DNA from: Rhodoferax sp. BLA1
GTDB taxonomy: Bacteria; Pseudomonadota; Gammaproteobacteria; Burkholderiales; Burkholderiaceae_C
Direction of reading: 5' to 3'
NCBI RefSeq assembly: GCF_013416775.1
Contig: NZ_SZVI01000001.1
Span: 124,001-188,000 of the forward strand
Length of the DNA: 64,000 nucleotides
The translations under genes were made by a program, and so were the position numbers. Below the pieces are notes generated by a model. The model was not told the DNA's origin. It saw only the letters and a list, made by a program, of their open reading frames with translations, and ran no database searches. Below are positions 11,151 to 12,276 of the stretch, piece by piece (position 1 is the stretch's first letter; every line of letters begins with the position of its first letter).

Positions 11151-11375
11151 TCAATGCAGCGAACAGCCGCCCGGCCCTGCCGCGTTCGGGCAGCCGCCAC
11201 AGGGGCTCGGTGGCATAGCCGCCATGTCTGGGCCGGAGGCTGTGGTGGCAAACACCGACAGCTGTTTCTCGAGCACTTTGGAATGACAACTCGGGCATTC
11301 AGGAACGGTGTCTGAACGCACCAAGGCTTCAAACTTGTGGCCGCAATCGCTGCAGGCGTATTCGTAAATGGGCAT
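11151..11375 (-). CDS. FmdB family zinc-ribbon protein
   Basis: A 74-residue protein starting MPIYEYACSDCGHKFE and continuing with ECPSCHSK, which gives two CxxC pairs that form the zinc ribbon of the FmdB/CxxC_CxxC_SSSS family. A third group of cysteines (CGGCPNAAGPGGC) sits in the flexible tail. Family members are small putative regulators of unsettled function. The gene is upstream of metH on the same strand with an 83-base gap and could be cotranscribed with it. Confidence 0.88.
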   Translation of the reverse strand: MPIYEYACSDCGHKFEALVRSDTVPECPSCHSKVLEKQLSVFATTASGPDMAAMPPSPCGGCPNAAGPGGCSLH

Positions 11376-11489
11376 GACAACTCCTTGTGTGGTGCGGAAT
11401 TATCGATCTGCCGAAAGCCCTTCCAGCAACCAAACAGCCAGACACCGACTCAAGAAAAAATCAAACAGTACACAGCGGCACAGGCAGGT

Positions 11490-11720
11490 CTACCACAGCA
11501 GAACATTCAGAGCCCGCCCACTCACCTCCAGCGCGTGCGCCGTGTGGTTGTAGGCGATGCTGCCGTGTGTCTCGGCTTGCCTGGCATCACCCGTTTCGTG
11601 GAGCAACGCCGCTTGCCGATGGTGTTTGACGGCTTTCTCCAGTTGTACGGCCGCTTCACGGTGGAGAAACTGCGGGGTCACGATGGACACCGGGGAAACG
11701 TTTGCGTCTGTGTAGCTCAT
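11490..11720 (-). CDS. Small conserved-looking helical protein, function unknown
   Basis: A 76-residue protein starting MSYTDANVSPVSIVTPQF. GGAGTG lies a few bases before the ATG at 11720, which decides this start over a Met seven codons earlier. The middle is helical and rich in His and Ala (KAVKHHRQAALLHETGD, then HALEVSGRALNVLLW). There is no signal peptide or cysteine. I do not recognise a named family; His-rich small proteins of this look are common in Comamonadaceae. It is followed downstream by the FmdB gene on the same strand. Confidence 0.6.
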   Translation of the reverse strand: MSYTDANVSPVSIVTPQFLHREAAVQLEKAVKHHRQAALLHETGDARQAETHGSIAYNHTAHALEVSGRALNVLLW

Positions 11721-11818
11721 GTTCACTCCATGATGGGTCAAAAGACCATCTTAGAGTGGCGCTTTTGGGTTAACAGTGCGCCACCACACAAACGATCACA
11801 GCAGGAACTGGTACATTG

Positions 11819-11907
11819 GATTCGGGTCTCCAAACCCCCACGCCTCTCCTCCCTGAGCGTGGCCCCGCAAGGGGTTACAAGCCCGGACACAGCGCCGGGC
11901 TTTTTTT
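11819..11907 (+). ncRNA. Candidate small RNA with CU-rich anti-Shine-Dalgarno loop
   Basis: In a gap without genes, the plus strand shows consecutive hairpins ending in an intrinsic terminator. CACGC / GCGTG (11839-11843, 11857-11861) enclose the loop CTCTCCTCCCTGA; CCCC GCAA GGGG follows (11863-11874); AAGCCCGG (11879-11886) pairs with CCGGGCTT (11895-11902) and is followed by seven T. No plus-strand gene lies upstream that needs this terminator. The loop is complementary to GGGAGGAG, so it could base-pair with ribosome binding sites, as in CCUCCUCCC-motif sRNAs of other proteobacteria. The 5' end is a guess; no clear promoter was found. Confidence 0.55.
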
Positions 11908-11967
11908 GGGCCTCACGCCGATGTTCGGCACCGCACAGAAGCGCGGGCGAGTACCTTATACAGTCAA

Positions 11968-12049
11968 CAGGTCACACATCCATGGACAGCCACCGGCGTA
12001 TTGGCCGGTACCGAGGACTAAACCCAGCCTTGAACCGCTGGGTTTTTTT
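11968..12049 (+). ncRNA. Second candidate small RNA or terminator-bearing transcript
   Basis: ACCGGC (11992-11997) pairs with GCCGGT (12004-12009). AAACCCAGC (12020-12028) pairs perfectly with GCTGGGTTT (12037-12045) and is followed by a T-tract, a plus-strand intrinsic terminator. A possible -10 (TTATAC, about 11957-11962) would start a transcript of about 80 bases. It is separate from the first candidate because that RNA already ends at 11907. It may simply be a backup terminator. Confidence 0.4.
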
Positions 12050-12068
12050 ACGTCTGGCGTCAGAAAGC

Positions 12069-12096
12069 AAAAAGCCCATCGCAATGATGGGCTTTT
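12069..12096 (-). terminator. Terminator of the Asn-Asp-Gly tRNA transcript
   Basis: AAAAGCCCATC (12070-12080) and GATGGGCTTTT (12086-12096) give an 11-bp stem with a 5-base loop. On the minus strand it follows tRNA-Gly and ends in a T-tract. Its stem is identical in sequence to that of the terminator at 12399-12425. Confidence 0.85.
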
Positions 12097-12111
12097 GCTA
12101 TATCAACCATA

Positions 12112-12187
12112 TGGAGCGGGAAAAGAGGTTCGAACTCTCGACCTATACCTTGGCAAGGTATCGCTCTACCAACTGAGCTATTCCCGC
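12112..12187 (-). tRNA. tRNA-Gly (GCC)
   Basis: A cloverleaf of 76 bases including an encoded CCA. The 5' acceptor strand is GCGGGAA, the anticodon loop TTGCCAA, and the T-loop TTCGAAC. It is last in the Asn-Asp-Gly series on the minus strand. Confidence 0.96.
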
Positions 12188-12199
12188 ATTTTTCACTTT

Positions 12200-12276
12200 T
12201 GGCGGAGTGGACGGGACTCGAACCCGCGACCCCCGGCGTGACAGGCCGGTATTCTAACCAACTGAACTACCACTCC
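12200..12276 (-). tRNA. tRNA-Asp (GTC)
   Basis: A cloverleaf of 77 bases including encoded CCA, with acceptor GGAGTGG, anticodon loop CTGTCAC and T-loop TTCGAGT. It lies 12 bases upstream of tRNA-Gly. Confidence 0.96.

Follow-up and report, generated by a model that had tools for sequence, protein, structure and literature searches.

Small RNAs of the anti-hemB type (Rfam RF02837) have been described in Burkholderia. In B. cenocepacia the RNA is ncS04, which is 105 nt long, expressed, has a 3' end confirmed by RACE and is stated to bind Hfq (PMC5688073). The same account reports no significant change in its expression under the qPCR conditions used, and so gives no hint of a signal. In B. pseudomallei, anti-hemB is listed as trans-acting (PMC3521395). 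A further family, the double-hairpin betaproteobacterial toxic sRNAs (RF02278), includes ncS27, overexpression of which is reported to attenuate growth and to affect genes for amino acid and sugar use (PMC5688073; reviewed in PMC10987360); the family is mentioned further in PMC4603805 and PMC7011215. For Bordetella pertussis, a preprint describes the sRNA S17 as directly repressing BP2158 by pairing at the 5'UTR, on the basis of compensatory mutations, and as not similarly toxic in E. coli (PMC11722255). Rhizobial RNAs SmelA075 and SmelA099 are described as carrying CCUCCUCCC loops (PMC3927594). RF02837 is widespread, being found at E ≤0.1 in 93 of 100 sampled relatives of the present organism and over its cut-off in 80 of them, compared with six and none, respectively, of 14 control genomes; yet the passages of the literature cited here state no function for it.

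The window analysed is a 64,000 nt stretch (C10:124001-188000) of a 4.46 Mb genome in 15 contigs, over which Rfam returned only tRNAs at gathering thresholds. Nucleotides 11824-11907 of the plus strand show the anatomy of an RNA of about 84 nt with four hairpins, the last of which is an intrinsic terminator (Table 1). A TTAC linker separates the GCAA hairpin from the perfect 8 bp terminator stem, and seven T occupy positions 11901-11907, two of them inside the stem. RNA folding reproduces the four hairpins at these places and adds two pairs within the large loop, where CUCCUCCC stays unpaired. A previous sequence-only reading had noted stacked plus-strand hairpins ending in such a stem and T run, as well as an anti-Shine-Dalgarno motif displayed in the largest loop, and both observations hold. 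It had placed the RNA at 11819-11907; the end is correct, while the first base lies 5 nt upstream of the start proposed here. The segment 11820-11907 folds with z = -3.36 (none of 200 shuffles as good), and the longer 11816-11909 with only z = -1.86 (8 of 200). A scan of 11380-12130 detected four terminator-like sites, the RNA's own among them, where 0.8 were expected. Folding by itself is moderate evidence; the strong evidence beyond chance is comparative.

Table 1. Features of the sRNA locus and other model matches in the same genome (window positions unless a contig is named).
Feature	Position	Strand	Basis or remark
83-aa ORF, divergent from the sRNA, 83 nt upstream	11490-11741	-	no Pfam or NCBIfam match
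-10-like TACATT, preceded by TG and one base (extended -10)	11812-11817	+	6 nt before first hairpin
5' mini-hairpin GGGT-CTCCAA-ACCC	11824-11837	+	fold; R1 match starts at 11824; both-side changes in 4 of 4 pairs (57 rows)
Loop hairpin CCACGC-CTCTCCTCCCTGA-GCGTGG	11838-11862	+	fold; both-side changes in 6 of 6 pairs (57-row alignment)
13-nt anti-Shine-Dalgarno loop CUCUCCUCCCUGA	11844-11856	+	loop of second hairpin
Short GNRA hairpin CCCC-GCAA-GGGG	11863-11874	+	fold; 57-row alignment
Intrinsic terminator AAGCCCGG-ACACAGCG-CCGGGCTT (stem/loop 11879-11902) with U tail	11879-11907	+	fold; terminator scan; 57-row alignment
Possible diverged sibling (R1 match 11984-12049)	11971-12049	+	30.5 bits; start by analogy
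R1 match, hemB-linked copy (position from the RF02837 match)	C10:473354-473438		52.7 bits
R1 match, loop TTTGCCTCA	C12:141807-141885		55 bits
R1 match, doubtful	C9:2230-2306		33.9 bits

RF02837 itself matches 11837-11908 with 41.7 bits, under its gathering cut-off of 49.5 bits (E 1.6e-8 for the 421 nt searched; E 4.1e-8 genome-wide), and the alignment runs over model positions 1-81 of 81, including loop and terminator. Some of its same-genus matches are shorter and have the frame of the window copy. A covariance model of this short form (R1) was made from ten relatives, the window being excluded. Its match to the window copy scores 60.7 bits (E 2.9e-12 in 64 kb), begins at the first base of the 5' mini-hairpin, extends into the U tail and covers the whole 79-position frame.

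Covariation was assessed on several alignments. Twelve of 20 fetched loci, together with the window, formed alignment A1, ten formed A2 (the window, G019 and G005b being dropped) and eight are in neither. A2 is a free MAFFT alignment with a structure chosen by the analyst. In the window-free ten-sequence alignment, 95.7% of 187 cells pair and 18 cells show double changes, where shuffling gives 7.2 ± 2.0 and sliding the partners no more than two; two of the five covariation measures (pairs changed on both sides, and further pair types) were not above shuffles. Alignments A3 and A4 were fitted to R1, so that they lean to that model, and both include the two window matches; of the model-fitted alignments, one of 42 distinct rows was 98.3% paired with 104 double-change cells (25.9 in shuffles) and one of 57 rows was 97.5% paired with 113 (30.5 in shuffles), all five measures exceeding all 500 shuffles in each case.

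No sigma-70 consensus promoter was found by a strict scan of 11380-12130, and a promoter-like element becomes visible only through comparison of relatives. Among the 57 model matches, 37 have a TAnnnT motif exactly 6 nt ahead of the match start and 44 have one at 5-7 nt, any other spacing occurring at most four times; TG is in the extended -10 place in 26. In the window copy the element is 6 nt from the first hairpin, inside the 5-7 nt range typical of the short form. The fixed spacing points to a start near 11824, and judging from these motifs the sRNA is likely to be transcribed alone in this organism. Two plus-strand mechanical ORFs cross the site (279 aa, 11337-12176; 141 aa, 11816-12241), and a coding reading was set aside because both run through tRNA genes. 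Taken with the covarying helices, the R1 match and the RF02837 match under the cut-off, the fixed -10 position shows the structural conservation in relatives whose absence the earlier reading would have counted as a refutation, and the first reading of the site as an anti-Shine-Dalgarno sRNA is supported.

The same genome holds an RF02837 copy over the cut-off (57.6 bits), divergent from a hemB gene that passes the porphobilinogen synthase cut-off (511 vs 297 bits), and hemB lies within the fetched 2.2-3.1 kb at 26 of 30 RF02837 loci (L008-L037). This hemB-adjacent place, typical of the family, is not that of the window copy. Its minus-strand neighbours are, on one side, the 83-aa ORF, an FmdB-type zinc-ribbon protein and a homocysteine S-methyltransferase and, on the other, tRNA-Gly, -Asp, -Asn and -Phe and an NtrX-like response regulator. 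By tblastn over L046-L064 and L145-L177, hemB was detected only at L147 (the genome's own hemB-linked copy) and L170 (a 94-nt copy in G045). The window RNA is a dispersed paralogue of the known betaproteobacterial anti-hemB-type sRNA, and the site very probably encodes a genuine short regulatory RNA, able to cover ribosome-binding sites of mRNAs. A search of open-access papers returned no earlier account of the short paralogues.

The 83-aa ORF has no match in Pfam or NCBIfam, and relatives of it are divergent from sRNA copies at L191 (1681-1917, 96 nt upstream) and L195 (1672-1920, 83 nt upstream). The response regulator has NtrX as its top NCBIfam match, under the cut-off (153 vs 600 bits), and its closest counterpart in named genomes, at 85% identity, comes from a Rhodoferax MAG; the host is accordingly taken to be Rhodoferax or close to it. 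Eighty named loci with an NtrX-like gene were inspected; tRNA-Phe is present in 71, while a regular-expression scan found no copy near the gene and the best R1 match had an E of only 0.035, at least eight of the loci ending less than 500 nt past the gene and so being uninformative. Short-form copies on the same side of an NtrX-like gene occur at L152, L063 and L189.

At E 0.01, R1 matches 107 of 139 relatives. Counted as R1 matches that score 55 bits or more over no more than 91 nt, a definition that excludes the G045 copy, the short form is present in 28 of 84 genomes of the genus. Of 299 sampled genomes of the family, 51 have a match at E 1e-6, and outside the genus the short-form thresholds are reached only in G180 (82 bits) and G262 (61.9 bits). 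The genome of the window has five R1 matches at E ≤1 (Table 1). The one nearest to the sRNA starts 77 nt past it (E 2.1e-5 for the window, 0.0015 genome-wide), and has TACAGT at 11959-11964, hairpins and a family-like terminator; the anti-Shine-Dalgarno loop is absent. Its fold (11975-12051) has z -4.21, its DNA matches elsewhere are terminator-sized only, and it is possibly a diverged sibling of the sRNA. Neighbouring same-strand pairs of model matches, some degenerate, were also seen at L185, L156, L064, L195 and L189.

The copies sit among different genes at the 18 loci inspected. An opposite-strand tRNA gene (ARAGORN) lies 101-206 nt downstream of 9 of the 30 first copies; this convergence was noticed in that set and is weaker in the second, where it was found for 3 of 22 further copies, fetched later and partly from the same genomes. 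With one of the two copies outside the genus (L204, not L205), the total is 13 of 54 (also L145, L049, L152, L052, L160, L161, L166, L169, L172, L186, L187 and L198), and the kinds of tRNA differ. None of the 30 RF02837 loci L008-L037 has a tRNA within 300 nt. At about 45 tRNA genes per 4 Mb, the chance expectation is well below 1% at random sites, and higher if only intergenic sites are counted. By eye, short GGTACAAAACC-like and TGGTGGCTACA-like stretches were noted between the sRNA and different tRNAs at L160, L169, L172, L186, L187 and L052. At L168 (1584-1880) an apparent intron-bearing opposite-strand tRNA directly follows the sRNA terminator; it was also seen by eye and stands outside the count.

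CCTCC is present in the second-hairpin loop of 33 of the 57 matches and anywhere in the match in 35. The 24 loops lacking it comprise near variants (CTTCCC), unrelated loops and three weak matches, including 11984-12049 of the window; wholly different loops are TTTTGTTCACCCCTTCTC (L195) and TTTGTTCATTTG (L194). Because the training loops of R1 were CCTCCC or CTTCCC, any other loop lowers a copy's score, and some such copies may have escaped the count. A broader but tentative reading, which we consider possible without favouring it, starts from this persistence of the frame beyond the loop: in this genus the ancestral hemB-linked sRNA may have become an expandable frame, in which a unit of promoter, three constant hairpins and terminator is duplicated into new places, frequently facing tRNA genes and at times in tandem, with one loop free to change. 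The window would then hold one classical copy and one with its loop already replaced; CCUCCCUGA, UUGUUCACCCCUUCU, GUUCAUUUG and further loops would act as distinct seeds, and duplication combined with loop change would supply the cell with new regulators. The short paralogues separate constant from varying parts, offer loop variants on one frame for comparison, and may be an example from nature of how duplication gives rise to new sRNA regulators.

The best overall explanation, to which we give a probability of roughly three in four, is a stand-alone gene for a trans-acting sRNA, a dispersed paralogue of the hemB-linked anti-hemB, whose loop blocks ribosome binding with Hfq. The extended -10 promoter would give a transcript from about 11824 to its own terminator at 11907. 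The RNA would keep a fixed frame of 5' mini-hairpin, loop hairpin, GNRA hairpin and terminator, the U tail being the probable site of Hfq binding; an hfq gene is present in the genome (102 bits). By pairing with purine-rich Shine-Dalgarno sequences, the loop would block ribosome binding on selected mRNAs. By analogy with the related sRNAs, masking of Shine-Dalgarno sites with Hfq is the most likely action of the window RNA.

The targets may be guessed to include uptake genes for amino acids and amines. Searches of the genome for TCAGGGAGG-N2-10-ATG gave two hits (none with the reversed control) and for GGGAGGAG-N1-10-ATG three (seven with the control); no convincing gene start was found among these hits, the ORFs being only 14-86 aa. 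AGGGAGG-N3-10-ATG gave 14 hits, two of them one overlapping site, against five for the control, an enrichment that says little on this RNA because any Shine-Dalgarno-like motif is expected to exceed its reversed pattern. Two of the 14 look like real starts, those of a PotH/PotB-like permease (300 aa, best NCBIfam match PotH, under the cut-off at 333.6 vs 489) and of azlD. The permease stands behind an ATPase passing the potA subfamily cut-off (L236, 601-2619) and azlD behind azlC (L237, 808-1841), so that AGGGAGG precedes the start of the second gene in both pairs. On this pattern the polyamine-type permease and azlD count as candidate targets, though weak ones. A HipA_C hit seems to begin within a gene.

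A transcribed RNA might instead mimic the 16S rRNA 3' end, or tie up Hfq or other RNA-binding proteins, with no pairing to particular mRNAs. The loops UUCACCUCCCUGA of several relatives contain UCACCUCC, which is also present in the 16S rRNA 3' end, and the genome has few long, perfect target matches ahead of start codons. Variation of the loop on an unchanging frame would be unusual for a fixed 16S mimic, however, and related sRNAs are reported to pair with mRNAs, S17 by compensatory mutations (PMC11722255); we regard this explanation as improbable, if the strongest of the competitors.

Somewhat less probable still is a dispersed repeat whose copy is functionless in this strain and is kept by recent duplication. 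Sites do differ between genomes, as many as 11 matches occur in one genome (G005), tandem or neighbouring copies exist, and so do copies without the loop motif. Flanks are also common to some copies within G005, G100 and G112, so duplication of larger stretches is possible. Against this, the window copy has all helices, loop and -10 element intact, a repeat of the tRNA 3' end exceeds 11 nt in none of the 13 tRNA-linked loci tested, and searches for plasmid or phage matches found none. That the site is only a terminator or a set of chance hairpins, for example serving transcription of minus-strand genes, is very improbable: strong hairpins are common beside tRNA clusters and the strict promoter scan was empty, but only on the plus strand is the stem followed by the T run, and the entire frame fits the window-free model.

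Among the known systems, RF02278 (ncS03, ncS05, ncS27/bdhR1 and ncS62) was rejected as a home for the window copy, which falls far below its cut-off (22.2 vs 50 bits, E 0.029). SmelA075 and SmelA099 are similar in having constant anti-Shine-Dalgarno loops on stems that vary in sequence, but they carry the motif on each of their three or four hairpins, whereas the window RNA has it on one; they are likened here by description. S17, also betaproteobacterial, is likewise compared by description: its C/U-rich unpaired sites are described as pairing near the ribosome-binding site, and its short form arises by processing of a longer RNA. Anti-hemB differs from the window copy in its place beside hemB and in a longer second hairpin of the RF02837 model where the window RNA has the short GNRA hairpin, and the window copy stays under the family cut-off. 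The two nevertheless align over the whole model, share a nearly identical loop (UCUCCUCCCUGA) and end in a terminator with a U tail.
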